Assembly: GCF_024584785.1 (NCBI RefSeq)
Contig: NZ_CP074112.1
Span: forward strand, 2,170,001 to 2,234,000
DNA: 64,000 nucleotides
Reading direction: 5' to 3'
From: Idiomarina loihiensis
Lineage (GTDB): Bacteria > Pseudomonadota > Gammaproteobacteria > Enterobacterales > Alteromonadaceae
Positions 7,335 through 63,188 of this stretch are shown piece after piece; position 1 is the stretch's first letter, and each line of letters opens with the position of its first letter. Under the pieces are notes generated by a model. It ran no database searches, was not told the origin of the DNA, and saw only the letters and a program-made list of their open reading frames with translations. The position numbers and the translations under genes were made by a program.

Positions 7335-7460
7335 ATGAATGAATTCCGCTACTAGGTTCGCTTAAAATATAATGGCATTATCGCACGGTGCAGTGTTCCA
7401 TAGCAAAAGCCGGTGTGGCAGAGTAATAGCACCTGAGCTACATAACAATAAAGGATAATC

Positions 7461-27884: not shown

Positions 27885-27961
<77 letters not shown>

Positions 27962-46805: not shown

Positions 46806-47066
46806 AACAGCCCTCACTGAAAGTCTAACTTATTGATTACATTTATATATGACCAATATAGCTAGTGTTAATTTTTAGATAAAGCAACAATTTGTCTGTA
46901 ATTTCCAGTTTACCCTCTGATTTCACCTATTCAGCTCCATCCATGGTCAGGTACTTTTTACCAGAGCTCCATTCGTCCGATATCTCCATAATCACCGCTG
47001 TGACTAATCTGAGGCAAGAGGCCTTGTAATCCCCCCAAAAATAGGAGTAGTTATGCGTAGAAAGTG

Positions 47067-47678
47067 CTAGTACTGATTGAACTCTGCTCTTGTCTTCATG
47101 GCGCTCGAAAAAATATCGACAAGTGGCTGAAGATCGAGATTCACACCAGAAACATTGGCATAGACCCACTCTTCCTGCGATATTTCAGGCCACAATACAT
47201 CATAACCAAGTGCAAATAGCATTTCTTCAAAAAAGAATCGTTGCGCACGCCCATTACCTTCCCGAAATGGATGTAATAAATTAATCTCGCAGTATAAATC
47301 AGCCACATCACGCACGAAAACTTCAGGTGTTTTTGCATATTTTAGCAAAGGAATTTGGCGAAATAATCTATCAGCCTCAGTTTTTATTCTTGACGCCGTG
47401 CAGAATCGAGTTGCGCCTTTTGAAATATCAATTGTTCGTAACTCGCCAGCCCAATCGTATACATCCTGAAATAAATGCAGATGTAAACGCTGCAGATGCT
47501 CGAGTGTGAACTCTTGAATGTCTAATGTCGTGGATGTGTAGGATTTATAACGTAGGGTAGTAAATTCTATTTCGGCAGCGGCTAGAGTTTCCTCATCGCG
47601 GATATTGAGCTTGTTAACCAAAACATCGGCGTCCGGATAACAATACGGGTCTTTACCAACGCCGTACTTATCTCGCAT
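47067..47678 (-). CDS. fic: Fic-domain protein (AMP transferase, toxin of YhfG-Fic pair)
   Basis: 203 residues with the complete Fic motif HPFREGNGRAQRFF near residue 138 (catalytic His and ATP-phosphate-binding GNGR) and upstream helices ETLAAAEIEFTT and FQDVYDWAGELRTIDISKG, typical of the E. coli-type Fic. Fic enzymes AMPylate protein hydroxyls. It overlaps the 3' end of a YhfG-like gene in the order antitoxin-toxin. It is the last coding unit inside island 1, next to the conserved right end, and could stabilise the island. Confidence 0.88.
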   Translation of the reverse strand: MRDKYGVGKDPYCYPDADVLVNKLNIRDEETLAAAEIEFTTLRYKSYTSTTLDIQEFTLEHLQRLHLHLFQDVYDWAGELRTIDISKGATRFCTASRIKTEADRLFRQIPLLKYAKTPEVFVRDVADLYCEINLLHPFREGNGRAQRFFFEEMLFALGYDVLWPEISQEEWVYANVSGVNLDLQPLVDIFSSAMKTRAEFNQY

Positions 47679-47820
47679 ATTTACGTTTTAAAGATGCGAT
47701 AGACTGCTTTTCAGAAGACTCTTTCATTTTAAGGCCTTCATACCCAAGACTGGTTTTGAAGTTCTCAATATTTGGAACAAAGCGCTCTTGTTTATCTGGG
47801 CTGTTTTTTGTGCGTTTCAT
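47668..47820 (-). CDS. YhfG-like antitoxin of Fic
   Basis: A 50-residue ORF starting MKRTKNSPDKQERF and ending in ASLKRKYAR; its stop overlaps the fic start codon by 3 bp (ATGCGAGATAA arrangement). The central NFKTSLGYEGLKM and the terminal Arg/Tyr-rich helix match the pattern of YhfG (DUF2559), the short partner encoded directly upstream of fic in enterobacteria, which inhibits Fic. A second ATG lies 6 bp upstream (47826). Confidence 0.7.
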   Translation of the reverse strand: MKRTKNSPDKQERFVPNIENFKTSLGYEGLKMKESSEKQSIASLKRKYAR

Positions 47821-47891
47821 TATCATGTACCCTTATGATGAGTCGCATAAATTATAACCTATGCCACTCGTCTAAGCCATGTCCAATACGG

Positions 47892-48160
<269 letters not shown>

Positions 48161-48190
48161 TAATTCTATAGCCTGACATTGATAGCAAGT

Positions 48191-48234
48191 ACTAACTTTG
48201 AGGCTTTTGTGCCGATTCTGTGCCAAAATTGTGA
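48191..48234 (+). repeat. Left-end signature of island 2
   Basis: ACTAAC at 48191 (31 bases after CCA), then TGTGCCGATTC and TGTGCCAAAAT at 48208 and 48219, followed by a partial third unit (TGTGAC, 48230). Same arrangement and spacing as after att copies 1 and 3. Confidence 0.6.
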
Positions 48235-48349
48235 CTTGTTAAGGTTTTGCCTCCAAGTTTCATGACCTTCGCACAACATTCTTGCTCTTAATCGATTTAG
48301 GAAGCAAATTCTGTCGTTTTCTCTTAAGCATAAACAACAATATTCAATT

Positions 48350-49236
48350 TTAAGCATCGTCTTTAAATAATTCCTGTGCTGTATAATACAAGCTTTGATC
48401 AAAACGACGTTCTGGACTTAACTCTTTGTGCCCGCCATTCATAATCACATTTGTGATGCTAGATAATTTCATAATTGGATTATAACGTCGAGGATGATTC
48501 ATAAATCTACGAGTCATTTTACCATTCAGAGCAAATTCTTTGTCAGTCTGCAGGTTGAAAGCCATTTGAGTATAAATATTATGAATATTTACCTTATCTG
48601 TTTGTGTTAGTTCGTAAAGAATCCTTGCAAGCCTTAGCGTTGATCTATAAAGCCTTGTAACTTTCCCCACATCTCGCTCTCTTGATGCGCAATCAATAAA
48701 GGTACGGCAAATAGCAAAGTCGCTCCAAACAAAAATATCATATGCATTACCCTTATCAATAATCGGTGACTTACCCAATGTCTTCCATATTGGATGTAAT
48801 AAAAAAGGTTTTTGGTAGTCTTTAAACTCTGTAAATATTTTATTTAAACACCCAATGATTTCCTCCCTTTTACTCAACATTTCAACAGTATTATCCCAAT
48901 GTTGAATTGTCGAACAGGTAGGCTCTAAGATTTCCTTTAGTCTCGCTCTAAATGGTTTTATCGAATCAAAAATACCTAGCGCGGCGTAAGAAGTACTTGC
49001 AGGTCTAATCACCAACTCGGTACCCCAGTCAGACTCTCTGTCGTTTGCAGTGGTATCGTCCGGAATAACTGTAAGCTTAACTTCCAAGGCTCGAATTTTG
49101 ACTCGAATAAAAAACTCAATTCATTATTTGCCACATCGGTACCAAATATAAAATCAAAACCTTCTTCTCGCGCTTCTACCTGAAGCTCTTGATTCGTGCA
49201 TAGGTATACAGCAGAAGTATTTGTGTGAATCGCCAC
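48350..49236 (-). pseudogene. HindVP-family type II restriction endonuclease, truncated and frameshifted
   Basis: The main part (48350-49087) contains LEVKLTVIPDDTT and GTELVIRPASTSYAALG, the diagnostic core of HindVP-like endonucleases. The preceding part (49009-49236, EEGFDFIFGTDVANNELSF) lies in another frame. Adding one T to a T6 run (49109-49114) restores a continuous reading ANNELSFFIRVKIRALEVKL. The N-terminal ~50 residues normally present are also missing, and no partner methyltransferase is in the window. The stretch is visibly AT-rich compared with neighbours, suggesting separate transfer. Confidence 0.75.
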
Positions 49237-49295
49237 TAGTTGAAAACTATTTTTAATTAATGTACCCTTAAGCTGCTTATTTAGAACTGTAGGTA

Positions 49296-49640
49296 ATGAT
49301 GCTTAGACTCGGATTTTTAATACTGGTGCTTGTTGCTGTTCTGACTCAAATCAGTCAGGCGGTTGCTGATGTGCATCAATCTCACCAGTCCTCTTCTGAG
49401 CAACACCTCAATTTTGAGCATGACGAATCCCACATCGATAAGCGCAATCTCCCTAAAAGTGGAGAAATCAGCTTTGACTACCATCACTGCTGTCACTGCC
49501 ATGGCTCATTTCATTTATATGCCATGGAGACTGAAAAAACTCTCGCGTTACCACGAATGGGCACAATACGTCCTGGGTATACTGAGTTTTACACTAACCC
49601 TCTATCATCTCCGCTGTTCCGGCCTCCCATCTCCTCATAA
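49296..49640 (+). CDS. Small His/Cys-rich exported protein heading metal-efflux operon 1
   Basis: About 114 residues. Signal peptide (MLRLGFLILVLVAVLTQISQAVA) and a mature part with many His (DVHQSHQSSS, NFEHDESHID) and the cluster DYHHCCHCHGSFH. A plausible periplasmic metal chelator or sensor. Similar small genes head the second efflux operon at 61531. ATG at 49296 or 49299. It precedes the CzcC-like gene by 73 bp. Confidence 0.65.
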   Translation: MMLRLGFLILVLVAVLTQISQAVADVHQSHQSSSEQHLNFEHDESHIDKRNLPKSGEISFDYHHCCHCHGSFHLYAMETEKTLALPRMGTIRPGYTEFYTNPLSSPLFRPPISS

Positions 49641-49713
49641 CTGCCTAATAAGCTGCTATAGCAGCGCAAAAAAATCATTATTTTACGCAGTAATATGACT
49701 GAGGAGTCTATCT

Positions 49714-50964
49714 ATGGGTCCGTTTTCGACACATAGCAAACGCTTGTTTATTGCCGTAAGTCTGGCAATAAGTTCAAGCTACGCCAATGCACAGCAGTTG
49801 CCCGAGCAATGGCAAAAAACTGTGCAGCAACACCCCAGTGTTGAAGCCGCTCAACAGCAGGCTGAAGCGCTGATCCAACAGGGCAAACAATTAAATCAGC
49901 CTTTGTACAACCCTAGCTTATCGTCACGCTTAGAGCGTGAGGGTGGCATCAATAATTACGCTGTTGGTCTAAGCCAAACGCTGGACTGGAGCACTCGCAA
50001 TGAAGCAAGAGCCAGTCAGAGTGACGCCATGACGGCTATGGCAGTGAGTATTTATCGCCAGTCGGCGACATCGCATGCTAAAACTCTGTTGAATGCCTAT
50101 GTGCAATGGCTGGATGCAAAACAGCGTTACGCACTGGCGGAGCAGCAAGAGAAAATCGTTAAACAGGCGATAAACTTGGTTGCCGAACGACGTAAAGCCG
50201 GTGACTTAGGTGCCGTCGACGAACAACTGACGGTACTCGCACTAAGTCGGCAACTGCAACAAACGGCAGCGGCTTATCAACAGCTGCAATCCGCTGAAGC
50301 AGAGTTAAACGCTCTGCTAACCACGATTGACGTCGCTCAACTCTCCGTGAATGAGGAGCTATTTAACGTTGAACCTGCGTTAACGGCTCGCTGGCAACAA
50401 CATCCGGCGTTAAAAGCTGCTTACCTGCAATGGCAATTAAAGCGCGCCGATGTCGACTGGAAACGCTCGTTAACCACCGCCAACCCAACCATAGGCGTCG
50501 AAGCGGGCGAGAACGATAACGAAACAGTGGTTGGCTTATCATTCAGCATTCCACTACAGATTCGCAATAACTACAGCGATGCAGTACGCGCAGCCAATAG
50601 CGAAGCTGTTGCTGAAGAAAAACGTTTGATTGCACTAAGGCAACAATGGCAAGCAGCACTGAAATCATCTCTTAACAATTATCGCTTTGTGAAAAAACAG
50701 TGGCAAAGCTGGCAAAAAGACTTTCAATCTCGGCAGGATGAGTCGATGCAGGTGATTGAACAGTCCTGGCTCGCCGGTGACCTATCCACCACAGACTACC
50801 TCACCGCTGTGCAACAGCAGCTCGATAGCCAATTTGCAGGGATAGCGCTGCAAACACAATATCGGTTGGCCGCCATTGAATGGTTGTACCGTTCGGGCGA
50901 ACTCAGTAAAGCGCTGACGTTATCGCCGTTAAGCCAGCAAACAAACGCAGAGATTGGAGAGTAA
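49714..50964 (+). CDS. CzcC/CusC-like outer-membrane efflux protein (TolC family)
   Basis: 416 residues: signal peptide (to about ANAQQ), then two long coiled-coil/beta-barrel OEP repeats rich in Gln and Ala (QQAEALIQQGKQLNQPLYNPSL, VDWKRSLTTANPTIGVEAGEND). It forms the outer-membrane duct of the tripartite pump encoded with the next two genes. TGAGGAG lies 8 bases before the ATG. The adaptor gene follows after 3 bp. Confidence 0.88.
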   Translation: MGPFSTHSKRLFIAVSLAISSSYANAQQLPEQWQKTVQQHPSVEAAQQQAEALIQQGKQLNQPLYNPSLSSRLEREGGINNYAVGLSQTLDWSTRNEARASQSDAMTAMAVSIYRQSATSHAKTLLNAYVQWLDAKQRYALAEQQEKIVKQAINLVAERRKAGDLGAVDEQLTVLALSRQLQQTAAAYQQLQSAEAELNALLTTIDVAQLSVNEELFNVEPALTARWQQHPALKAAYLQWQLKRADVDWKRSLTTANPTIGVEAGENDNETVVGLSFSIPLQIRNNYSDAVRAANSEAVAEEKRLIALRQQWQAALKSSLNNYRFVKKQWQSWQKDFQSRQDESMQVIEQSWLAGDLSTTDYLTAVQQQLDSQFAGIALQTQYRLAAIEWLYRSGELSKALTLSPLSQQTNAEIGE

Positions 50965-50967
50965 ACG

Positions 50968-52113
50968 ATGTCAGTAAAACCTTTATACGCAGCAATAGCA
51001 CTTGCGCTGAGCTTTTCGGTTATGGCGCAGGATGAACACGGACACGACGAAAAAGAAGATACCCACAAGGAAGAAGGCAAACACGAGCAAGGTGAACATA
51101 AGGAAAGCTCAGGCGTGGAGCTATCCAGCAAGCAGCTATCCATGGCAGATATCACCACGCGAACCTTGCAAACTCAAGTCATTGAATATCCGGTTTATGC
51201 CCCGGGCGAGGTGGTTGCTAACGACTTTAACAGCTATATCGTGAGTCCGCGCATCGATTCGACCGTACTCAAACGTTTTGTCAGTATTGGCGATCACGTC
51301 GAAAAAGGTGAGCCACTGGCAACCCTCTTCAGCGCCACTATGGCAGAGGCGCAAAGTCAGTATTTGGTCGCACTTAACGAATGGCAACGCGTGCAGTCAC
51401 TAGGTGAGTCAACGGTAGGTGAAAAACGCTTTGTCGAAGCGAGAAATGCCTTTAGCTCAGCGCAAGCGCAACTCAACGCATTTGGTATGTCAGCCAGTGA
51501 CATTAAGCGTTTAAGTAAAGCTGACTACCCTATCGGCGAATACCAACTGACCTCAGAACTTGACGGGATTGTGGTTAGCGATAACTTCAAGCAGGGCCAG
51601 CAAGTTAATGCCGGTAATCACCTGGTTGAAGTGCTGCAAGAAGAAACCTTGTGGGTTAATGCTCGTCTACCAGGCTCAGCTGACCTTAATGTGCAGTTTG
51701 GTGATCCTGTTACAGTGAGTGTCGACAATCAGCGCTTTACGGCAAAAGTCATTCAAGAAGGCCACACAATAGACCATAAAACCCGCACCCGAACGGTACG
51801 ACTTGCGGTCAATAACGAAAAGGACCAATTACACCCCGGTTTATTTGCGGATGTTTATTTCTCAGTCAAGTCGGATGGCCCGGTGCTTGCAGTTAAGGAC
51901 TCAGCCTTGATGCGGGCGCCTGATGGTGACTGGCAGATATTCATTGAGCACGAACCCGGAAAATTTGAACCGAAGAAAGTCGAATTGGTTGCTGAAAAAG
52001 GTCCGTGGAAAGTCATTAGAGGCGTTAAGGAAGGCACAGAATATGTAGACAACGGCGCGTTTTTCGTTCGCTCTCAAATCGCTAAAGGCGGTTTTGACCC
52101 ACATAACCACTAA
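50968..52113 (+). CDS. CzcB/CusB-like periplasmic adaptor (HlyD family)
   Basis: 381 residues with a signal peptide (to about VMAQ) and a striking His/Glu/Lys-rich N-terminal arm (DEHGHDEKEDTHKEEGKHEQ), probably metal-binding. A barrel-sandwich hybrid (PRIDSTVLKRFVSIGDHVEKGEPLATL), alpha-hairpin and beta-barrel domains follow (VSVDNQRFTAKVIQEG). It links the RND pump to the outer-membrane channel. Operon neighbour of the CzcA-like gene with 11 bp between. Confidence 0.88.
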   Translation: MSVKPLYAAIALALSFSVMAQDEHGHDEKEDTHKEEGKHEQGEHKESSGVELSSKQLSMADITTRTLQTQVIEYPVYAPGEVVANDFNSYIVSPRIDSTVLKRFVSIGDHVEKGEPLATLFSATMAEAQSQYLVALNEWQRVQSLGESTVGEKRFVEARNAFSSAQAQLNAFGMSASDIKRLSKADYPIGEYQLTSELDGIVVSDNFKQGQQVNAGNHLVEVLQEETLWVNARLPGSADLNVQFGDPVTVSVDNQRFTAKVIQEGHTIDHKTRTRTVRLAVNNEKDQLHPGLFADVYFSVKSDGPVLAVKDSALMRAPDGDWQIFIEHEPGKFEPKKVELVAEKGPWKVIRGVKEGTEYVDNGAFFVRSQIAKGGFDPHNH

Positions 52114-52124
52114 CAGGAGGTTTT

Positions 52125-55100
52125 ATGTTTCAGCGCATTATTCAGTTTGCTGTCGCTAATCGCCTGTTATTGGTATTGGCTTTATTCAGCATCAGCATTG
52201 CGTCATTTTTTGTTATTCCCAAACTTAATCTGGATGCCTTCCCCGATGTTACCAACGTTCAGGTAACGGTAAATACGGAGGCCCCCGGGTTAGCAGCGAC
52301 CGAAGTCGAGCAGTTGATTACCTATCCGATAGAGTCGGTGATGTATGCCCTGCCCGACGTCAAAGAAGTTCGGTCAATCTCAAAAACAGGTTTATCGGGC
52401 ATTACGGTAGTATTTGACGAGAGTGTCGATATCTACTTTGCCCGGCAACTGGTGTTTGAACGACTGCAGGCGGCAAAGGAATTAATACCCGAAGGCGTAG
52501 GTACACCCGAAATGGGTCCTAACTCTTCCGGCCTCGGCCAGGTTTATCAGTATCTGCTACTTGCCGAACCGGGCTCCGGTGTCAGCAGTATGGAGCTACG
52601 CAGTCTAAACGACTATGTGGTTAAACTGCTATTGATGCCCGTTGAGGGAATTACCGAAGTCTTGTCCTTTGGCGGCGAAGTTAAACAGTATCAGGTTAAT
52701 CTTAACCCCGCTAAGCTGTTGTCTTACGACCTTACCCAGCAAGACGTCATGAGCGCGGTCAACAAGAATAACGGTAACGTTGGTGGTTGGTATATGCCCC
52801 GCGGTCAGGAGCAGTTGGTTATTCGCGGCACCGGCTGGCTGGATAGCGGTAAAAAAGGCCTGCAACAAATACGACAAATACCGCTCAAAACAGTTGACGG
52901 CGTTTCCGTAACACTGGGCCAGGTTGCCGAAGTCGAAATCGGCAGTGAAATTCGCCAGGGGGCGGTCTCAATGTCGCGTAAAGTCGACAGCGAGGTCAAC
53001 CAGCTGGGCGAAGTGGTGTCGGGTATTGTGCTCAAACGCATGGGCTCGAATACCAAAGCCACCATCGACGGTATTAAAAAGCGCATTCCGCTTATTCAGC
53101 AAGCATTACCCGAGGGTGTCACCTTTGAGCCGTATTATGATCAGGCCGACTTAATACAAAAAGCCGTATCTACGGTCGCGTATTCACTGCTCATTGCCTT
53201 TGTGTTTATTATCGCAGTATTAGCACTGTTTTTGCTCAACATACGCGCTACTTTTTTAGTGTTACTGTCCATTCCCGTTTCTATCGCCATTGCCCTAATG
53301 GTAATGTCCGCGATGGGCATGTCGGCTAACCTGATGTCGCTGGGCGGGATAGCTGTTGCCATTGGTATGCTGGTCGACGGCTCCGTGGTGATGGTTGAAA
53401 ACATCTTTAAGCACTTAAGTCGTCCGGATAGTGAACATCATGGCGACGCCGAGCAACGCACAGAGCACCGCGACCCGGATCCTCAGGCAGCCAAACTCGA
53501 CAGTCATGGTATCAAGCTGCGAGTTAAGGAAGCGGCTAACGAAGTGGCTCGACCGGTATTCTTTGCCGCCATGATCATCTTGGTGGTCTTTATGCCACTG
53601 TTTAGTTTTCAGGGTGTTGAAGCTAAATTATTTGAACCCATGGCTATCAGCATTATGTTGGCCATTATCTCCGCGGTTTTTGTGGCCATTATGGTTGTCC
53701 CGGCATTAGCCAGTTACTTTTTCAGTCGGGGTATTAAGCCTCGTGAAAATAAACTGCTTAAACCACTAGATAATGGTTATAAAAGACTATTGTCGGTCGC
53801 TTTACGCAGTAAAAAGGCCGTTATTACCCTGGCCGGTTTGCTGTTTGTCGGCGCTTTGGTGTTAGTGCCTCGTCTCGGCACGGAGTTCGCTCCCGAACTG
53901 GAAGAAGGCACGATTAATATTCGCGTGACATTAGCCCCCTCCTCTAACCTTGAAACGGCCTTAGAGGTGGCTCCGAAGCTTGAAAAAATCCTGATGTCGT
54001 TCCCGGAAACCACCTACGCACTCAGCCGCATTGGACGAGCCGAAGTGGGCGGTGATCCAGAGCCTATCAGCAACATCGAGATATATGTGGGCCTTAAGCC
54101 GCAATCCGAATGGACAACGGCATCCGATCGCTACGCCTTACAAGAAAAAATGGAGGCAAAACTCGATGCTCACCCAGGCTTGTTGTTTAATTTTTCACAA
54201 CCTATCGCAACACGGGTTGATGAACTGCTCTCAGGTGTAAAATCGCAGCTAGCCATCAAACTATTTGGACCCGAGCTTGACGTGTTGGCCCGTAAAGGCC
54301 AGGAAATAGAAAGTGCCGTCAAGCAAGTTGACGGGGCGGTTGCAGTAGCGATGGAGCAAATAAAAGGTGAATCACAACTCGTGGTTTCGCCGAAACGCCA
54401 ACAACTCTCACGCTACGGCTTAAATGTCTCCGATGTACTGAGCGTTGTCGACAATGGCTTGGGTGGCGCTTCGGCAGGCCAGATCATTCGCGGTAATGAG
54501 CGCTATGATATTTACGTGCGGTTGGCCAAGCAATTCCGCGATACGCCGGAGTCTATTCGCTCGTTACGCTTGTTAACTCCCTCAGGGGCCTGGGTAACCT
54601 TAGGCGAAGTCGCCAGCGTTGCAATTGAATCAGGACCACCGCAAATCCGTCGTGATGATGTACAGCGTCGCGTTGTGATTCAATCGAACGTTCAGGGTCG
54701 TGACATGGGTAGCGTGGTTGCCGATATTCGGAAGGCGATTGACGAGAAGGTGGATTTACCAACCGGTTACTCAGTCGACATTGGTGGCCAGTTCGAAAGT
54801 CAACAAAGAGCACAGAAGCGCTTGTCCATTGTCGTTCCCATATCGTTGGCACTCATCGCCCTGCTGCTTTATTTTGCTTTCGGCACCATGGGTCAAGCCA
54901 TGCTGATTTTGGTGAATGTACCGTTAGCAGTCATCGGTGGTATTGTGGCACTCTATGTGTCAGGACAGTACTTATCGGTGCCCAGCGCGGTTGGTTTTAT
55001 CACGCTTTTTGGTGTGGCGGTACTAAACGGTGTGGTTCTGGTCGAAAGTATAAACCAGAGAATAACCGATGGGCATGCGGTTAATGATGCCGTGTTTGAT

Positions 55101-55322
55101 GGCGCATGGTCGCGACTCCGTCCGGTATTGATGACAGCTATAACCTCAGCGTTAGGGCTCATCCCGATGCTGTTTGCAACCGGTGCAGGGGCTGAAATCC
55201 AACGCCCACTGGCTACCGTCATTGTCGGTGGTTTGGTATCAGCCACTCTGCTGACACTGGTTATCTTACCCGTGCTCTATCCTTGGTTTTCGAAACAAAA
55301 GGTTAATGATTTGAGTCGTTAG
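52125..55322 (+). CDS. CzcA/CusA-family heavy-metal efflux RND transporter
   Basis: 1065 residues with the RND layout: TM1, periplasmic domain, TM2-7, a second periplasmic domain, and TM8-12. It contains NLDAFPDVTNVQVTVNTEAPG, proton-relay region AIGMLVDGSVVMVENIF (Asp and Glu as in HME-RND), and GTEFAPELEEGTINIRVTLAP. A loop after TM4 is rich in His/Asp (SEHHGDAEQRTEHRD). It pumps divalent metal from periplasm or cytosol; which metal cannot be settled from sequence. Confidence 0.93.
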   Translation: MFQRIIQFAVANRLLLVLALFSISIASFFVIPKLNLDAFPDVTNVQVTVNTEAPGLAATEVEQLITYPIESVMYALPDVKEVRSISKTGLSGITVVFDESVDIYFARQLVFERLQAAKELIPEGVGTPEMGPNSSGLGQVYQYLLLAEPGSGVSSMELRSLNDYVVKLLLMPVEGITEVLSFGGEVKQYQVNLNPAKLLSYDLTQQDVMSAVNKNNGNVGGWYMPRGQEQLVIRGTGWLDSGKKGLQQIRQIPLKTVDGVSVTLGQVAEVEIGSEIRQGAVSMSRKVDSEVNQLGEVVSGIVLKRMGSNTKATIDGIKKRIPLIQQALPEGVTFEPYYDQADLIQKAVSTVAYSLLIAFVFIIAVLALFLLNIRATFLVLLSIPVSIAIALMVMSAMGMSANLMSLGGIAVAIGMLVDGSVVMVENIFKHLSRPDSEHHGDAEQRTEHRDPDPQAAKLDSHGIKLRVKEAANEVARPVFFAAMIILVVFMPLFSFQGVEAKLFEPMAISIMLAIISAVFVAIMVVPALASYFFSRGIKPRENKLLKPLDNGYKRLLSVALRSKKAVITLAGLLFVGALVLVPRLGTEFAPELEEGTINIRVTLAPSSNLETALEVAPKLEKILMSFPETTYALSRIGRAEVGGDPEPISNIEIYVGLKPQSEWTTASDRYALQEKMEAKLDAHPGLLFNFSQPIATRVDELLSGVKSQLAIKLFGPELDVLARKGQEIESAVKQVDGAVAVAMEQIKGESQLVVSPKRQQLSRYGLNVSDVLSVVDNGLGGASAGQIIRGNERYDIYVRLAKQFRDTPESIRSLRLLTPSGAWVTLGEVASVAIESGPPQIRRDDVQRRVVIQSNVQGRDMGSVVADIRKAIDEKVDLPTGYSVDIGGQFESQQRAQKRLSIVVPISLALIALLLYFAFGTMGQAMLILVNVPLAVIGGIVALYVSGQYLSVPSAVGFITLFGVAVLNGVVLVESINQRITDGHAVNDAVFDGAWSRLRPVLMTAITSALGLIPMLFATGAGAEIQRPLATVIVGGLVSATLLTLVILPVLYPWFSKQKVNDLSR

Positions 55323-55338
55323 GGTTCAATAGCACTTA

Positions 55339-55362
55339 AAGGGGCGGTTATTGCCGCCCCTT
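55339..55362 (+). terminator. Hairpin between efflux operon and CDF gene
   Basis: Arms AAGGGGCGG/CCGCCCCTT with a 6-base loop, 17 bp after the RND gene stop. Followed only by TTCT, so a weak terminator or attenuator that may lower expression of the CDF gene. Confidence 0.55.
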
Positions 55363-55384
55363 CTACTACAAAAAGGAACGTATT

Positions 55385-56272
55385 ATGGGGCATCACCATA
55401 ACCATGATCACTCAAAGGACATGCCGTCCAAACGCCTGGGGTGGGCATTTGTTCTTAACTTTGTTTTCACAATTATCGAGTTTATTGGTGGCTTTCTTAC
55501 CAACAGTACCGCCATTTTAGCCGATGCCGTTCATGATCTTGGCGATAGCTTGTCGTTAGGTCTCGCTTGGATACTAAATAAACTTGGCAAAAAACAGGCT
55601 AACCAACACTTTACCTACGGTTATAAAAGACTGAATCTTGCCGGTGCATTTATTAATGCCGTTGTGTTAATCGCAGGCTCTGCCTGGGTACTTGTGGAAG
55701 CAATTCCCAGACTCTGGAACCCTCAGATGCCCGTCGCTGATGGCATGATTGCTTTAGCCGTCGTTGGCATTACAGTTAATGGATTTGCTGCTTACAAATT
55801 GTCAGAGGGCAAAACGTTAAACGAACGCGTTATTAACTGGCACTTGCTGGAGGATGTTTTCGGCTGGGTTGCTGTACTTATCGTTGGTATTGTTTTGCTG
55901 TTCGTAGACTGGCCGATTCTCGACCCTATATTGTCGATTGGCTTTACTCTATTTATTTTAGTGAATGTACTACGCAACCTGTGGGCAACACTGAAACTCT
56001 TCATACAGGCCACGCCAGACAAAAAAACCTACAAACAAGTCGCGGACGCTTTACTGGAGCTACCTCATGTCGCTGACCTACACCATCTGCATTTTTGGTC
56101 ACTAGATGGCGAGGAGCATGTATTAACCGTTCATTTGGTGTTATCTAAAAACCTTGATATTGAGGCCCGTAGCGATTTAAAACAGCGCATCGATGACGTC
56201 CTTGCGCCCTATGCTTTAAGCCATACAACGGTAGAACTAGAAGATCCTGATGAAGCCTGTAGGGACAACTGA
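55385..56272 (+). CDS. CDF-family cation exporter (CzcD/ZitB-like)
   Basis: 295 residues, six transmembrane helices, His-rich N terminus ([12 protein letters not shown]). Metal site A residues are seen in [15 protein letters not shown] (HxxxD) and [12 protein letters not shown]; a cytosolic domain ends with [20 protein letters not shown] and [11 protein letters not shown]. It exports Zn2+ or similar ions from the cytosol to the periplasm, complementing the RND pump. AAAAAGGAACG precedes the ATG. Confidence 0.92.
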
Positions 56273-56274
56273 TA

Positions 56275-56606
56275 ATGAGTGCATTATTTTTAATGAAAAC
56301 ACTGGGCTTATTTATTGCCACCGCAATTGCTGAAATTATCGGATGCTATTTACCCTACCTATGGCTCAAAGAGGGCCATTCGGTTTGGTTGCTCATTCCG
56401 GCGGCAGTGAGCTTAGCCTTATTTGCTTACTTATTAACACTTCATCCAGCGGAAAGCGGGTGGGTCTACGCAGCTTATGGTGGTATTTACGTGTTAACTG
56501 CCATAAGCTGCGAATTATCGATAAATCGCCTTTATCCAGCTTCGACTTGATTGGGGCGGCGTTTGTGCTAACCGGTATGGGGATTCTTGTGTATGGCTGG
56601 CGTTAG
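56275..56606 (+). pseudogene. ynfA: YnfA (UPF0060) membrane protein, frameshifted
   Basis: The 5' part ([26 protein letters not shown]... [13 protein letters not shown]) and the 3' part in another frame ([32 protein letters not shown]) together make a full YnfA of about 110 residues. One base is missing around 56503-56508 (ATAAGCTG where a Trp codon before Leu is expected). YnfA is an SMR-like four-helix membrane protein. It starts 2 bp after the CDF stop. Could also be a sequencing error. Confidence 0.8.
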
Positions 56607-56657
56607 CTATAAAGCAATTCAGTTAAAGAACTACGCTCAAAAGTTTTACTACACAGA

Positions 56658-57101
56658 CTAACGCACCTTATGTTTGTCCGTGGTAGCGTCCTCAACCCCG
56701 TCATTAAGCGACGCCATCAGTGGACAATAGACATCTCCGTGTCCGGAGCTGCATTTTTGCACCAGCTCATTCAACGCTCGTTCAACTTGCTGTAAGCGCG
56801 ATATCTTTCGACGAACACTGGTGAGCTTTTGCTCTCCAAGCTCCCGTGCTTCATCGCAATGAGCGCCATCTTGCAGAGTTAATAGCTCACCAATTTCATC
56901 CAGACTAAATCCGAGCCATTGAGACGCGCGAATAAAATGAAGCCGAGCAAGCGCTTGTTCGTCGTAATGTCGGATCCCCCCATACGGCTTCTCCGGCTCG
57001 CTCATTAGCCCTCGGCGCTGATAATAGCGCACCGTTTCCACGCCCACGCCGGCTGTTTTGGCCAGCGTGCCAATTGTCATTACGTTGCGTTTTTTTAACA
57101 T
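56658..57101 (-). CDS. merR: MerR, mercury-responsive transcriptional regulator
   Basis: 147 residues. N-terminal MerR-type winged HTH (MTIGTLAKTAGVGVETVRYYQRRGLM), dimerisation helix, and Hg-binding cysteines at 82 (GAHCDEA), 117 (QKCSSG) and 126 (VYCPLMASL), exactly the MerR positions when translation starts at 57101. An earlier in-frame start (57143) would lie within the operator. No merT, merP or merA is present nearby: an IS3-like element begins 55 bp upstream of the start. It is convergent with ynfA. Confidence 0.88.
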   Translation of the reverse strand: MLKKRNVMTIGTLAKTAGVGVETVRYYQRRGLMSEPEKPYGGIRHYDEQALARLHFIRASQWLGFSLDEIGELLTLQDGAHCDEARELGEQKLTSVRRKISRLQQVERALNELVQKCSSGHGDVYCPLMASLNDGVEDATTDKHKVR

Positions 57102-57106
57102 AGCTA

Positions 57107-57137
57107 TTGCTTCCGTAGTGAGGTACGGGTCTAAGAT
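57107..57137 (+). promoter_or_regulatory. MerR-type operator/promoter (PmerT) directed into the IS element
   Basis: -35 TTGCTT (57107) and -10 TAAGAT (57132) with the over-long 19-bp spacer typical of MerR-activated promoters. The spacer holds the dyad CCGTA-GTGAGG-TACGG (57113-57128), matching the mer operator. It fires to the right, away from merR, where mer structural genes normally lie, but the IS left end starts at 57156. Confidence 0.8.
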
Positions 57138-57218
57138 TAACACATTAAAGCAAAATGATCCGTACCAGTACTTTTGGACACCGAGCTAAGTGAGTAAAAT
57201 CACTTAACGAGGTGAATC

Positions 57219-57503
57219 ATGAAAGCAAATAAAACACGCAAAGTCCACACACAAGAATTTAAAGCAGAAGCCCTGAAATTAGCTGAAAGAATAGGCGTTG
57301 CAGCGGCGGCTAGAGAACTGAAAGTCTACGAATCCCAGCTGTACAGTTGGCGGACTGCGGCGCAAAAAAAATCTAGCACGAGCGCCAGAGAAGCAGAGCA
57401 AGCCGCTGAAATTACTCGATTAAAACGTCAATTAGCTGAACAGGCAGAGGAACTAGCCATATTAAAAAAGGCGGCTACCTACTTCGCGAAGAACCAAAAA
57501 TAG
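57219..57503 (+). CDS. IS3-family OrfA
   Basis: 94 residues: HTH (FKAEALKLAERIGVAAAARE) plus leucine-zipper (EITRLKRQLAEQAEELAILKK). AACGAGGTGAATC precedes the ATG. Near its 3' end AAAAAAG allows a -1 shift into the orfB frame, which is open from that point (KKGGYLLREEPKIARFEF), giving the OrfAB transposase. Confidence 0.92.
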   Translation: MKANKTRKVHTQEFKAEALKLAERIGVAAAARELKVYESQLYSWRTAAQKKSSTSAREAEQAAEITRLKRQLAEQAEELAILKKAATYFAKNQK

Positions 57504-57553
57504 CCAGATTTGAGTTTATTCTTGAGCACCAGCATCAATTCAGCTTAAAGCGG

Positions 57554-58369
57554 ATGGTGAACGTGCTCAACGTATCGCGTAGTGGGTATTATGCCTGGCG
57601 GAAACATGGTCAGACAGTCAATCCTCGAGAGCAGCGTCAAATTGAGCGAGACGAGGCGATTAAGCAGGCATTTATTGACTCGAAAGAGCGCAGCGGCGCT
57701 CGGCGTATCCAAGTGGATTTGGCAGAGCTCGACATGACACCCGACATCAAAACTATTCGCAATAGTATGATACGCCAGGACCTTGTACCTAAGGCTGCAC
57801 GTAAATTTAAGGTCACCACGGACAGTAAGCACAATCAGCCTGTGGCGCCAAACTTGCTGGAGCAAGATTTTACAGCAAGTACTCCGAATCAAAAGTGGGT
57901 TGGCGATATCACGTATTTATTCACTGGTGAGGGCTGGCTGTACCTAGCGGTAATCATCGATTTATATTCACGCTCGGTTGTTGGCTGGTCGATGAGTAAC
58001 CGAATGACCGCAACGTTGGTGTGTGATGGTCTGAAAATGGCTTTATCTCGCAGAGGCTTTCCCGAAGGGATCATTGTTCACAGCGACCGAGGTAGTCAAT
58101 ATTGTTCAAACGATTATCGAGATTTAATTAAAAAACATAGACTTACTCAGAGTATGAGCCGAAAAGGAAATTGTTGGGATAATGCCTGTGCCGAAAGCTT
58201 CTTTCACTCATTAAAGGTCGAAGCCTTGCAGGACGAGCCCATCATGGATCGAGAAAATATGCGCCGAGCAGTCTTTGAGTACATCGAAGTTGATTACAAC
58301 AAGACAAGAAGGCATAGTGCTATTGGCTATCTCAGCCCAGAGAACTTTGAATTAAAAAATAGTGCTTAG
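57554..58369 (+). CDS. IS3-family OrfB, DDE transposase
   Basis: 271 residues from the ATG, or longer as the OrfAB fusion. HTH_21-like N terminus (NVSRSGYYAWRKHG) and integrase core with DDE residues in WVGDITYLF, IIVHSDRGSQY and CWDNACAESFFHSLKVE. Intact, so this copy could mobilise itself and supply transposase to the mutated copy 1. Confidence 0.93.
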   Translation: MVNVLNVSRSGYYAWRKHGQTVNPREQRQIERDEAIKQAFIDSKERSGARRIQVDLAELDMTPDIKTIRNSMIRQDLVPKAARKFKVTTDSKHNQPVAPNLLEQDFTASTPNQKWVGDITYLFTGEGWLYLAVIIDLYSRSVVGWSMSNRMTATLVCDGLKMALSRRGFPEGIIVHSDRGSQYCSNDYRDLIKKHRLTQSMSRKGNCWDNACAESFFHSLKVEALQDEPIMDRENMRRAVFEYIEVDYNKTRRHSAIGYLSPENFELKNSA

Positions 58370-58463
58370 CAAAGTGTCCACTTTTAGTGGTACGGATCAC
58401 TTTTTGAGGGGGCACTAATGTTGATGCTATTTAGTAAGGAAGTAAATAGCAAGCTGAAGTAAA

Positions 58464-58604
58464 TTAATCACTCTTGGATATGAGCTCGATGATCCAAGGT
58501 AGTAGCCATTCGATATCATCACTACGGTCAACTTTTGGCCACGGCGCGAGCAGGTTCATCAAGTAGTCAACTGGCTGTAGATTATAGCCATGAGCGCTCC
58601 AAAC
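58464..58604 (-). pseudogene. Transposase C-terminal scrap, IS66-like
   Basis: About 46 codons ending at a TAA (58464-58466), reading AHGYNLQPVDYLMNLLAP then DIEWLLPWIIELISKSD. The YL...LL...LLPW pattern resembles the C-terminal tail of IS66-type TnpC. No upstream part of the gene is found; the remainder was probably lost. Family assignment is tentative. Confidence 0.4.
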
Positions 58605-58736
58605 AAGTTACAAAACACTGCCAGTCAAAGTCTAGTTTTGCAGCACAGTGTTAGGTGTAACGCTCTTGGTAGTAACAAGCGCTTGCTTTGACTTCGCCTC
58701 GCTGGTTCAAAATTACAGTAATAATAGTTCTAATGG

Positions 58737-58762
58737 GCGAGGCGGATTGTTTTCCGCCTCGC
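58737..58762. terminator. Strong inverted repeat at 3' end of the RHS remnant
   Basis: Arms GCGAGGCGGA and TCCGCCTCGC with loop TTGTTT, about 50 bp past the RHS stop. A further CGCCTCGC lies at about 58695. No long T-run, but the stem is stable; likely transcription end of the minus-strand gene. Confidence 0.55.
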
Positions 58763-58811
58763 TTCTAATTGCTAGCTCATAAAGATAAATTTACTCTTCC
58801 GGTCTGGTAAC

Positions 58812-60873
58812 CTAAAATCCTCGAGGGTTACCGGCATGCGCAGGTGCCGTAATCATATGATTGACGAAGTCCCTGACGCTAAGCTCAGTACCACACCTAC
58901 AAGGGCTTTCCCCTTGCGCAAGCATTATAGGCCCAGTAACAATCATTTCGCCAGCCCCGGTTGGGTTATCAGATGTACATATTTTATCGTAAAAGCCTCT
59001 CTCGCTGTTCGCTGTTGGACAAACACAAGGAGCTGGGGCTTTCTTCATCGTAGCGAATGCATAAAGCGCCTCCCCCATTGCCATAATTTGGTCATGTCGA
59101 TAACCGAGATCACGAAGTTCGCGGTATTGCTGATTATTTGGATTTATCGTTCTAACTACTCTTTGACGGGTTCCATCAGGATCAATCTGTATAATCGGAT
59201 CGCTTTCAACATAAACATACGTATTCATCCCGCCGCTCAACCCAATCGGATCTGACTGAATATAGCGCCCCGTGCTTGGGTCGTAATCACGATGCCAGTT
59301 CTGCCATGTGCCGCTCTCGCTGTCCCAGTACTGACCTGGGAAGCCGATATTCAGTGCACCAATGCTAGAGCTCACAATACTGCGGTCAAAGCTTTGCAAA
59401 TCGGCCTCCCAAACTACCGCTTTCGTGTCATCGGTCACTTTGTGCGGGCGACCTAAGTGGTCGTTGTGCACAAAGTACAATTCATCATTATAAACAAGCG
59501 CAACCAACTCGCCTTCAAGCCAAATATAGCTTTTCACATGTGGCCCGTTCTTGGTTTCGCTCAGTAGTTCGCCGCTCTGGCCATACAAAAAGTGCCAGTC
59601 GGTCGTGGTTGAGCTCTTCGCGACCCGTTGCCCGTTAGTGTCATACCAGTTTTCGTAGTAAAACCCTGATGAGCGTGTCAGCCGGCGTACGCGATTATCA
59701 CCGCCATAGGTCCAAGTGTGGGTCTCTTTTTGCAGCTGATTACCTGCATTGTCATAACTCCATATCGATGCATAGCTACCACTGGCTCCGACACGGTGCC
59801 CGGTCAGTTGGTTGCTGTCGGCATCGACTCTATAGTACTCATTGTTAAATCGTGTGCGATTGCCGTTGGCATCGTAATTGTAGACTTCTAGCGAGTTGCC
59901 ATTGCGCTTACGCTGCGTCAAGCGCGAACGATTATCGTAGGTAAAACTCTCGAGCTCTGAGCCTAACACATCTTCAATGCTGACGATGTTGCCAGCGCTG
60001 TTATACGCCAACTTAGCTTGTGAGATGTAAGGCGCTTGAAAGTAAAAGTTCTGATATTCAGTGGTCAATGGCGCCCAACCGCCGCCCACGTAGGATGACT
60101 TCAACTCATAACCGCTCGTATACTGCCGAAACGCGCTCAGGTCATTACCATAGGTGCCGTAACGCAACGGTCCAAAGGCTTCATGATTGAGCATCGTCAT
60201 TACCGGCTCTCGGACGCCGTTTATCGTCACATAAACCGCTGACGGGCGCCCTTATTTCACAACCATACCGTCATATTCGTAGTCCACCAAGATACCCGAT
60301 GGATAGCTGATTTCAATCACACGTCCTTCATCATCGTACACCCATTGTGTGGTATAGCTAGCACCTAAAATGCTTCGCGTCATGCTCGCCAGTTGACCTG
60401 CTGCGGTATAGTCATAGTCTGTGGAGCCCGCGCGGTCGGTGGTACGACACAGCTTACCCACGCCATAGCTACAGTTATCGTAGCTGAATGTTTCGTTGAC
60501 ATCGCCAGAGCTGCGTTGCGTCACACGCCCGATACCATCATAACTGAGTGTGGTACTCGTCCCGTTCATCCTGGTTTTCTGAAGATGGCGTATCACCAGC
60601 GCCTCCCCCCGAACCACCGCCACCACCACCGAGCTGATAATCCTGGTCGCCGCCTATACCCGGCCATCCGCCATCTAGATTTGCCATGTCATAACATGCT
60701 TGTCATGCAACAAGAACAGTTTCGTACCTTGGCGTGCCATTTGGGAGTGTTCCGTTCGGCCTCGATACCTCTGTATATGTGGTCCAACAGATTTCCTGAG
60801 AAGCCTGCGCATGTAATGTGAAAGGAGTGATGAAAATACTGAAAGCTATTAGGCTTCGAATCGCTAGTTTCAT
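58812..60873 (-). pseudogene. RHS/YD-repeat protein, decayed
   Basis: Secreted RHS-type gene in pieces. The 5' end (60873) encodes a signal peptide (MKLAIRSLIAFSIFITPFTLHA). A Gly-rich linker then follows in a different frame. YD repeats (LSYDGIGRVTQRSSGD, YDYTAAGQLASMTR) run until an in-frame TAA at 60252-60254. The longest part (58812-60230) has more YD repeats, the core DYDPSTGRYIQSDPIGL and a Cys-rich variable C terminus. At least two frameshifts and one stop separate the parts. RHS C termini are often toxins; no toxin fold is recognised here. Confidence 0.75.
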
Positions 60874-60999
60874 GAGGCAACGTCCATGCAAGTTAACATA
60901 AAGTAACTCGACCGTATCACAATTGAAACAACATACCAACATTTTGGTATTCGATTATTCTCGGTGTTGCATGAACGTCAGTGTGCATGCTGATAAACA

Positions 61000-61270
61000 T
61001 GGAATTTTTTCCACCTCAAAACTCAGGTTTTAGGTCGATGATTGAGATTTTTTGTCGCAAGGCAGAGGTCAAAAATCGTCGGTTTTGGGGATGGTGCTCT
61101 GTGACCAATTTTGTTGTTAAATGGTCTCAAAAGGACGAGTATTTTTTAGAAAGGGAAGGCAGCAACACCGTTTAAGCCCATACCACGCCTAGCTTTAACG
61201 ATTTACCACCGAACCCGTGACCGCCCTCCGGAGGCAGAGGTCACAGGTTCGACTCCTGTCGGGTGCGCCA
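61000..61270 (+). repeat. Conserved right-end segment B of island 2 (about 270 bp)
   Basis: Homologous to 47892-48160, with the last 86 bp (from 61185) identical except one base. It begins TGGAATTTTTTCCA and ends in att copy 3. Conservation in two islands with unrelated cargo marks it as part of the element backbone rather than cargo. Confidence 0.85.
61223..61270 (+). repeat. att copy 3: tRNA-Arg 3' half, right border of island 2
   Basis: 48 bp identical to the tRNA-Arg 3' end; the next base upstream differs (CCGCCC versus CTGCCC). No 5' tRNA half is present. Confidence 0.9.
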
Positions 61271-61299
61271 TATCTGCAGGAGCTTCACGGTTTGTGAAC

Positions 61300-61338
61300 A
61301 CTAACACAAAAATTTTTGTGCCAAATCTGTGCCAAATT
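61300..61338 (+). repeat. Left-end signature of a presumed third island
   Basis: ACTAAC at 61300 (30 bases after CCA), then TGTGCCAAATC and TGTGCCAAATT at 61317 and 61328. Its match to the signatures after copies 1 and 2 implies that another element, not chromosomal flank, starts here. Confidence 0.6.
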
Positions 61339-61530
61339 TATTCCTGCTTATAATATTGTCGCCCTTCAGCGCCGCTGATGCAGGCGATTTCCAGCCACTT
61401 TTTACTTTTGTTGAGACCAGTATTTAAGTGTAATAAGTCCAACACACCTTTCTAAGACGGTTGAATTCGATAAAAGAGAAAAAGCCGGTGATTGAGCCCA
61501 TGAGATACATGTGGTAGCCTCTTTCTTATT

Positions 61531-61887
61531 TTGAAATGGTTTTTTCATCTGCAGGTTGTTCGTTTGCCAAAAATTATTTGGTCGTTGATCGTAGTCATTT
61601 TACTTCACAGTTTTTTTACCTGTGCGGTTGCCGCTGGGCATGTGGAGGATAGTAATCACACTTTCGATTATGCCTATCAACATCATACGCACAATGATCA
61701 CGAGACGAAGTCACCCGACAACCTCGATCCAAACCACGAACATCAATTTCACGCACACATAAGCTGTATCACTGGTTATTCAATCTGTGCTGCGGCAACA
61801 CCATGTCCGAATCTTGCAATCCCACATCGATTACTTCCTTTCGATAGTAACGACCATCAACCACCAACCCCACCACCAAATGCCTAA
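61531..61887 (+). CDS. Small His-rich exported protein heading metal-efflux operon 2
   Basis: About 118 residues: a hydrophobic leader (IIWSLIVVILLHSFFTCAVAAG) and a His-rich mature part (YQHHTHNDHETK, NHEHQFHAHIS) with three later cysteines (SCITGYSIC, TPCPN) and a Pro-rich tail. Start uncertain (TTG at 61531; other TTG codons follow). Same place and character as the gene at 49296, although sequence similarity is low. A periplasmic metal-binding role is inferred. Confidence 0.6.
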   Translation: MKWFFHLQVVRLPKIIWSLIVVILLHSFFTCAVAAGHVEDSNHTFDYAYQHHTHNDHETKSPDNLDPNHEHQFHAHISCITGYSICAAATPCPNLAIPHRLLPFDSNDHQPPTPPPNA

Positions 61888-61940
61888 ACTTCACGTCTAA
61901 AATTTGTGCATTAGCACGCCATTTTACTGTGGAGATAATC

Positions 61941-63188
61941 ATGAAATTACTTTATTTCGTGATTGCTGTACTTGTGGGGTTACTTGCAACCTCATATTCA
62001 GCAATCGCAAATGAGTTATCATTGCGAGAGGCATTTGAGAACGTCTTGCGAGATAACCCAATCTTAAAGAAGTACCCGTATCAGCAACGTATGGCTGAAG
62101 CTGAAAAACTGCAGGCATCGCTGCGTCCAAATCCAGTTATCGGGTTCGAACTGGAGGATTTTGCTGGTAATGGTGAAAGCCAAGGATTCGACAGCGCTCA
62201 AGCAACATTGTCGTTCAGTCAGCTTATTGAGCTTGGTGGAAAACGCGAGCAACGAGTTGAGTATGCGAACGCGCGACAACGTCAGCGGGCCGCTGAGTTT
62301 AATTACGAAAAGATCGAAATCCTAGCGGAGACGGCTTATCGTTTTTACGAAGTTGTTCGGTTGCAGCAGTTGGCCGAGTGGAATAGCCATCAGCAGCAAC
62401 GGCTCGATAGTGCAATGCAAATAGTCAAGGAGCGGGTCCGGTCCGGAGCTGTGCCACCATCGGAAGCAACTAAAGTTTCATTGCAACAACGCCAAGTAAG
62501 CATCCAATCCGAAGAGATTATTGGAAAGCTTGACCAAGCACGAGCGAACTTAAGTGCAATGTGGGCAGCACAGCCGAACTTTACAGGTGTAGTCGGTAAC
62601 TTTGATCAATCTTTTGATATTCCTTCACAAACTGAAGTTGAACAAGCGGTCAATCAAGCGCCAGAGTTTCTTCGTTTACTGGATTCAGAACGGTTACTCG
62701 CGGCAAAAGTTGATGCTGTGAAGGCAGATGCTTCTGCCGATCTCAATGTTGGAGTGGGTGTTCGTTACAACAATCAGCTAAATGACACTGGTCTTGTTCT
62801 CCAGGCGTCGATGCCTCTTCAACTTTCGAACCCAAATCAGGGAACTCTTGAGGCTACTAAAGCTGAGCGTACGTTAGTTTTTGAACAGCAGCGTTTAATT
62901 CGAGACCAGTTGCGCGTTCGTGCTCGATCGCTGTTGGGTCGCATACAAACAAATTATCGCTACTTAAAGAGCATTCAAGCAGATTTATTGCCCCTCGCTG
63001 AGCAACTAGTCGATGAAACCACCGATGGCTATCGCCGAGGTATACATAGTCTTTTAGTTGTTCTTGATGCGCAAGATGAACTAGCACAGCTTGAGTATCA
63101 AACCCTTGAGCGCCGAAGCGCTATCCATCAAGACATTCTTGAGCTTGAGCGAATGACGGGTCAATCATTTTTGGAATCTAAATTATGA
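61941..63188 (+). CDS. CzcC-like outer-membrane efflux protein (TolC family)
   Basis: 415 residues: signal peptide (MKLLYFVIAVLVGLLATSYSAIA), then OEP repeats (LREAFENVLRDNPILKKYPYQ, SLRPNPVIGFELEDFAG, FSQLIELGGKREQRVEYA). The start at 61941 has GGAG 7 bases upstream; an in-frame GTG at 61929 is less likely. Clearly diverged from the CzcC-like protein at 49714. Its stop overlaps the next start (ATGA). Confidence 0.88.
   Translation: MKLLYFVIAVLVGLLATSYSAIANELSLREAFENVLRDNPILKKYPYQQRMAEAEKLQASLRPNPVIGFELEDFAGNGESQGFDSAQATLSFSQLIELGGKREQRVEYANARQRQRAAEFNYEKIEILAETAYRFYEVVRLQQLAEWNSHQQQRLDSAMQIVKERVRSGAVPPSEATKVSLQQRQVSIQSEEIIGKLDQARANLSAMWAAQPNFTGVVGNFDQSFDIPSQTEVEQAVNQAPEFLRLLDSERLLAAKVDAVKADASADLNVGVGVRYNNQLNDTGLVLQASMPLQLSNPNQGTLEATKAERTLVFEQQRLIRDQLRVRARSLLGRIQTNYRYLKSIQADLLPLAEQLVDETTDGYRRGIHSLLVVLDAQDELAQLEYQTLERRSAIHQDILELERMTGQSFLESKL

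Follow-up and report, generated by a model that had tools for sequence, protein, structure and literature searches.

The locus described here raises the question of whether mercury could make an insertion sequence (IS) jump. It lies in a 64,000-nucleotide stretch of the Idiomarina loihiensis chromosome (NZ_CP074112.1, positions 2,170,001–2,234,000 of the forward strand), which is called the window below and the numbering of which is used unless genome positions are indicated. The original prediction, made from the letters of the window, was that a mercury-responsive promoter has lost its mer genes and reads into a transposase gene, and that mercury exposure might therefore induce transposition. 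The reading we consider reasonably probable is that an Hg-inducible promoter was stranded after an IS insertion and a deletion, and that it faces an IS with a shielded leader, with little effect on transposition.

The regulator gene merR (56658–57101, minus strand) encodes a protein of 147 aa, whose only cysteines are at positions 82, 117, and 126, the three that had been read from the sequence. Cys82, Cys117, and Cys126 are the three Hg ligands reported for the MerR of Tn501 (PMC5027573). In the profile search, the protein scored over the cut-off of the Hg MerR model TIGR02051 (154.6 bits, cut-off 150.85) and under that of the narrower model NF010315 (169.7, cut-off 261). The models of Zn, Cu, and Cd/Pb sensors gave 57–102 bits, each under its own cut-off, on which a sensor of Zn, Cu, or Cd was rejected. 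His118, reported to be necessary for activation by Tn501 MerR (PMC5027573), corresponds to Ser in the window MerR as well as in all 16 relative loci compared. Over codons 8–147, the window merR differs from those of 14 relatives (L064–L077) by 1–6 amino acids; compared with L064 and L065, it has a single non-synonymous codon difference and no synonymous one.

The promoter of the mer structural genes (57107–57137, plus strand) consists of the −35 hexamer TTGCTT (57107–57112), a 19-bp spacer containing the dyad operator CCGTAGTGAGGTACGG (57113–57128), and the −10 hexamer TAAGAT (57132–57137). It had been called a textbook divergent promoter, and it does fit the mer-promoter pattern with zero mismatches. 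When the 2.90-Mb single-contig chromosome was scanned with TTGNNTCCGTAN6TACGGN3TAN3T, allowing up to two mismatches, two matches were obtained, this promoter with none and another with two, while the reversed pattern used as control gave no match; thus, the match is not due to chance. The site with two mismatches adjoins a second merR and merC. This second merR (genome 1,170,884–1,171,294; L031:7463–8295) scored 141.7 bits, a little short of the 150.85 required by the MerR model. Downstream of it, in the same orientation, is merC (178 bits, cut-off 140); an operator-like site separates the two genes, and no ORF resembling MerA was noticed alongside. The 31-mer of the window promoter is identical in seven of 16 relative loci and differs by a single base in the remaining nine. 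This bears on the possibility that the locus is a dead relic, in which either the promoter or MerR has lost its response and only basal activity is left. The genes served by the promoter are gone, and the divergence of merR from L064 and L065 (one non-synonymous change, no synonymous one) is too small to prove constraint, yet relatives with intact operons have the same cysteines, dyad, spacer, and pair of hexamers, and nothing is visibly broken, which makes such a relic unlikely. The locus would rather retain a working switch, where MerR still represses the promoter without Hg(II) and activates it over the 19-bp spacer when Hg(II) is present.

What this promoter once served can be deduced from the relatives. 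A MerR-based scan of species genomes found 15 loci, 14 of them under the names Idiomarina or Pseudidiomarina (one being a MAG) and one in a MAG named only as gammaproteobacterium. The same promoter region leads to merT in 14 of the 15. A full-length merA is present in 13; in one further locus merA is cut short by the end of the contig, and one locus has none. While merT and merA were scored in all 15 loci, ORFs were listed for four, and merP was seen within those four; for the proteins of L065 the family models gave MerT, MerP, and MerA. The alignment of the relatives to the window stops at 57157, two bases within the tip of the IS. Since their promoter faces merT and the identity ends at the IS tip, the IS is placed within what was once the merT leader, of which 18 bp (57138–57155, as in the empty site of the relatives) remain after the −10 box. 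By this comparison, the element lies before the ribosome-binding site of merT and the DNA on its right side is not mer. The origin of the locus would thus be a chromosomal mer operon like those of Idiomarina and Pseudidiomarina, the left half of which is still in place, and into whose merT leader an IS3-family element was presumably inserted 18 bp past the −10 box.

To the left of the IS, the aligned part comprises czc-type efflux genes, a CDF transporter gene, ynfA, and merR, and is interrupted in some relatives. In L065, an additional ORF (6847–7482), CDF-like by eye and absent from the window, lies between ynfA and the CDF gene, and the alignments of L064 and L066 break at the same place. 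In L078 (Idiomarina sp. MD25a), the promoter side of merR is replaced by other DNA, where an ORF looks transposase-like by eye, and neither merA nor merT was found in this 12.4-kb locus, in which the mer operon was lost independently.

The absence of the mer genes after the promoter was also part of the original prediction, and for merA and merT it extends beyond the window. No merT, merP, or merA follows the promoter in the window, no protein of the single-contig genome reached the MerA cut-off in a profile search, and a search of the genome for MerT, carried out without a positive control, gave no match. On the MerA and MerT searches, a relocation of the operon within the genome was rejected. 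The best relative of Idiomarina MerA in this genome is 29% identical. Broken pieces of a MerA-like flavoprotein are found at 268.4–269.3 kb of the genome, in a second metal region (L032, 262–269 kb) with MerR-family regulators and genes that appear by eye to encode P-type ATPases.

In place of merTPA, the right flank of the IS (58400–61271) contains an Rhs fragment and an att-like repeat, and is related to a different island in genome G245. Its first ~0.8 kb has no match among the matches listed. The Rhs fragment shares 94% identity with one in G245, a genome whose mer site is uninterrupted and located on a different contig. A tRNA-Arg(CCG) gene is located at 27885–27961, and its 3′-end is repeated at 48115–48161 and 61225–61271 (47 bp, identical by eye) and, over 31 bp, at about 2,238,930 in the genome, all repeats being in direct orientation. 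These repeats suggest tandem islands at the tRNA gene, one of which would be the czc–merR–IS–Rhs segment. The Rfam scan of 47000–62500 gave a single match over the gathering score, a tRNA-like fragment at 48101–48157. Beside each att-like repeat in the window there is a ~270-bp element (47891–48161 and 60994–61271, ~77% alike), and stretches similar to it occur in at least 10 other genomes.

This arrangement would be explained by a later deletion directed rightward from the IS, which eliminated the mer structural genes and brought unrelated island DNA next to the IS. The route was probably recombination between IS copies carried by two neighbouring tRNA-Arg islands, and we infer that it would account for the loss of the mer genes as well as for the missing 3-bp target duplication at the window IS, which is flanked by AAA on the left and CTT on the right. 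The latter is a weak sign of deletion, since the duplication was present in four of the 12 elements compared and missing in eight, including the window IS, and all four full-length copies in the genome are without one. In the junction search, which covered 295 genomes with two candidates scored per genome, only the match of the window's own genome (G000) spans the IS junction among the matches listed, while the matches of at least 11 genomes end at 57157, as expected for the empty site. A genome sharing the junction should rank at the top of the matches, so that a junction common to the relatives was rejected on the matches listed.

The IS itself (57156–58399, plus strand) is an IS3-family element of 1,244 bp with the ends TGATCC…GGATCA, delimited by its repeats, model matches, and comparison of copies; we take it to belong to the IS3 subgroup. 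Its first base is the 19th past the −10 box (18 bp between) and orfA has the same direction as the mer promoter, both in accordance with the prediction. The left and right inverted repeats, identified by repeat comparison, extend over 57156–57190 (IRL, plus strand) and 58365–58399 (IRR, minus strand). The orfA gene (57219–57503, plus strand; ORF and model) encodes 94 aa, and the orfB frame (57470–58369, plus strand) encodes a DDE transposase that scored 323.1 bits with the IS3 transposase model NF033516 (cut-off 160). A slippery motif, A_AAA_AAG, is present at 57464–57470 (plus strand), and a −1 frameshift on it gives the fused OrfAB product of 383 aa with D230, D290, and E326. Hence, the description of the copy as intact was correct for the frames, the slippery motif, and both inverted repeats, with the reservation that the transposase has unusual residues at OrfAB positions 188, 222, 237, 271, and 277.

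Residues were counted in aligned stretches (99 over 51 loci, other copies of this genome included); the loci of the junction search overlap in part with another set of loci, and the genomes of that search may repeat species found in the MerR-based scan. The change A271G lies at a near-invariant site, A being present in 33 of 35 stretches and G in none, as does F277S, where 32 of 35 stretches have an aromatic residue (F/Y/W) and one has S. Sites 188, 222, and 237 vary more (D at 188 in 5/36, G at 237 in 1/33), and the E that replaces D at position 78 is common among relatives (18/44). Compared with the three other full copies in the genome, the window copy has six private coding changes, all non-synonymous, among them A271G, F277S, and the E at position 78. 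Six changes are few, and all of them would often be non-synonymous by chance; moreover, four of the five private changes of the copy at 446,098 are non-synonymous, so wear does not set the window copy apart. Among the four full-length copies, it alone has kept both frames and the slippery motif intact: the motif is changed in the copy at 446,098, orfB has a stop in that at 2,201,854, and orfA a frameshift in that at 2,245,524. A close relative of the window copy in genome G026 is 99% identical to it and has open frames. The decay of the other copies weakens the argument from decay of this one. Nevertheless, we infer from the substitutions that the window transposase has begun to decay, and judge its activity to be impaired, with some activity still conceivable.

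Whether the mer promoter can reach orfA depends on what lies between them. A terminator at the IS end that blocks read-through had been set beforehand as a sign against the prediction, and a simple consensus terminator scan of the plus strand found none between the −10 box and orfA. The only plus-strand candidate (57058–57073) precedes the promoter, which excludes it as a block. As no terminator was found, and MerR, the operator, and the hexamers match those of intact operons, an Hg(II)-induced RNA that runs through the IS is likely on sequence grounds.

It would be a further step that Hg(II)-activated MerR, by way of this RNA and its OrfAB product, makes the window IS jump under mercury stress. 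The promoter, the regulator, the orientation, the spacing, and the open frames all fit this, as do the lack of a detected terminator before orfA and the fact that no other full copy has retained its frames together with the slippery motif. Precedents exist in the IS5 copy driven by a host promoter at nmpC (PMC11677980) and, as far as described, in the Zn-responsive expression of IS transposases in Cupriavidus (PMC4803752). Still, the read-through RNA is predicted to be shielded from translation, the transposase has the unusual residues listed above, and the junction, present in one genome among the matches listed, bears no sign of selection keeping it. We regard mercury-triggered jumping as distinctly improbable. 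Thus, the part of the prediction by which the promoter points into the IS stands, while induced transposition is not favoured by the modelling of the leader, which is predicted to hide the Shine–Dalgarno (SD) sequence of orfA, and by the six private non-synonymous changes of a partly worn transposase.

In the predicted fold of the read-through RNA (57179–57214, plus strand), CACC (57179–57182) pairs with the SD GGTG (57211–57214), and an inner hairpin is predicted between 57187–57193 and 57200–57206. The fold of the window read-through leader has a predicted energy of −20.2 kcal/mol (z −3.21), and none of 200 shuffles was as low. Opening of the SD would cost 5.8–7.8 kcal/mol in RNAs starting at 57138–57165 and 4.9–7.4 in that starting at 57175, compared with 0.4–1.5 kcal/mol for starts at 57204 or 57207, and with 2.3–4.1 for the merT leader of a relative by the same prediction. 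Starts at 57185–57190 are cheap as well (1.1–2.7), while those at 57195–57200 are costly (4.8), so the outcome of the shielding depends on the true start site. A candidate internal promoter of the IS (57174–57200, plus strand; TTGGAC, 15 bp, TAAAAT) was recognized by inspection, with its −10 box in the loop of the hairpin and a predicted start near 57207; the promoter scan, which covered spacers of 16–18 bp, did not report this site with its 15-bp spacer. A short RNA begun within the IS would be free of the SD-hiding fold.

The leader was then compared among 41 distinct left ends, the window included, of which 40 were aligned. L136, in which the tip is missing, was omitted, L112 is the same as the window end and was merged with it, and L103 was kept despite a tip cut by 5 nt. 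The palindrome of the leader is conserved: the cells of the whole 12-pair structure pair in 91.9%, with five pairs changed on both sides, and its covariation score was reached by none of 500 shuffles, a comparison in which related sequences can exceed the shuffles without any structure. The inner hairpin is paired in 91.4% of cells, with eight cells changed on both sides and covariation unmatched in 500 shuffles. Of the cells in the four pairs that involve the SD, 94.4% are paired, and this helix showed no covariation beyond shuffles in the 40 ends (105/500 as high), so its pairing could come from the constraints on the inverted repeat and on the SD. RNAalifold gave no consensus structure for the 40 ends. 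A pairing of the tips, TGAT/ATCA, occurs in the window fold and was rejected as a conserved part of the leader, since its start-codon side varies among relatives. In 12 elements with both ends, the window included (L100 and the spurious pairs in L084 and L106 being omitted), the base facing the SD is C in 10 of 12 IRLs and in none of 12 IRRs, which argues that the SD pairing is more than a by-product of the inverted repeat.

The predicted SD opening was scored in 39 of the 40 ends, L107 being skipped for want of a recognizable SD. The mean cost was 7.22 kcal/mol for the full leader, against 3.96 for shuffled leaders and 1.52 for those that begin 4 nt ahead of the SD. It was above the mean of the end's own 60 shuffles in 35 of 39; the exceptions are L139 (1.79 vs. 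3.90) and L116, L117, and L124, which are slightly under their shuffled means. The window is among the ends that follow the trend (6.49 vs. 4.07, 5% of its 60 shuffles being as high). These predictions tentatively point to an IS3-type group with a conserved translational switch that depends on the start site, where RNA from outside hides the SD and RNA from the internal promoter cannot, though we would put such a switch at somewhat less than an even chance.

The same dyad could be a DNA site instead of an RNA shield, that is, the operator through which OrfA represses its own synthesis over the internal −10 box. OrfA of IS3-family elements is a small HTH protein, which counts for this reading, and the dyad brackets the putative −10 box and is perfect in L095; furthermore, compensatory changes are kept by symmetric DNA sites as well. 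RNA is a better fit to the G–U-compatible changes at columns 35/48, 36/47, 37/46, and 38/45, to the C that faces the SD in the IRL only, and to the effect on the predicted SD opening. An operator in place of the shield is therefore a minority possibility, albeit one with some weight, and operator and shield could both be true at once. If the shield is what the dyad forms, orfA would be poorly translated from the read-through RNA, whose IS leader folds its own SD away, and the net result of Hg(II) exposure would be an inducible, largely unproductive transcript with little or no induced transposition. The window locus is a stranded pair of sensor and promoter pointing into a partly worn, probably self-shielding IS. 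It captures a mer operon in the course of being lost, with the sensor and the switch still present but their output gone, and the relatives supply the empty site; in addition, the stranded promoter offers a natural, inducible test of how IS3-type elements are protected against incoming host transcription.

Among known systems, Tn501 is reportedly capable of Hg-inducible transposition, in which transcription from its mer promoter likewise reaches the transposition genes. Tn501, however, is a Tn3-family transposon with a whole mer operon. Typical IS3-family elements resemble the window IS in OrfA and OrfB with a −1 slippery motif, the DDE transposase, and TG…CA ends, and differ from it in the target duplication, which it lacks, and in its unusual OrfB residues. 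IS50 is protected from external promoters, and Tn10/IS10 and IS200 are said to protect themselves in the same sense; as predicted for the window IS, in self-protecting elements the read-through RNA is made unproductive by structure at the 5′-end of the IS. The regulatory part of the locus is like that of Tn501-type merR–Pmer–merTPA operons, with divergent merR, Cys82/117/126, and a 19-bp spacer containing the dyad (PMC5027573), but the mer structural genes are absent and the promoter faces an IS. A truncated mer cluster, merRT with partial merP, has been described on pMOL30 of Cupriavidus metallidurans (PMC6266692); both operons were cut down by loss, but merT remains on pMOL30, while the loss in the window begins in the merT leader and the IS fills the place. 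At nmpC of E. coli BW25113, the host promoter, upstream of and co-directional with the transposase gene as in the window, drives transposition of IS5, an effect that scales with promoter strength and acts chiefly in cis (PMC11677980). There transposition was measured, whereas the window promoter is switched by metal and faces a leader with predicted resistance to read-through. In Cupriavidus metallidurans, the IS's own promoter region is Zn-responsive and upstream flanks lowered ISRme5 expression (PMC4803752), so that metal-linked transposase expression affected by upstream flanking DNA is common to both cases, but the description of the Cupriavidus elements includes no MerR promoter. Terminators at the 5′-end, reported to limit expression after landing in transcribed DNA for ISs including IS3/IS2/IS600-type elements (PMC2965389), differ from the predicted SD-hiding fold of the window IS. 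Structure in the 5′-UTR controls the transposase of ISPpu9 (PMC8450116), a control that is not described there as one of read-through. A literature search limited to titles and abstract openings found neither an Hg-inducible IS3-family element nor such a leader fold. ISs driven by host promoters, and ISs that shield themselves, are both known themes, of which the window locus is a new instance.
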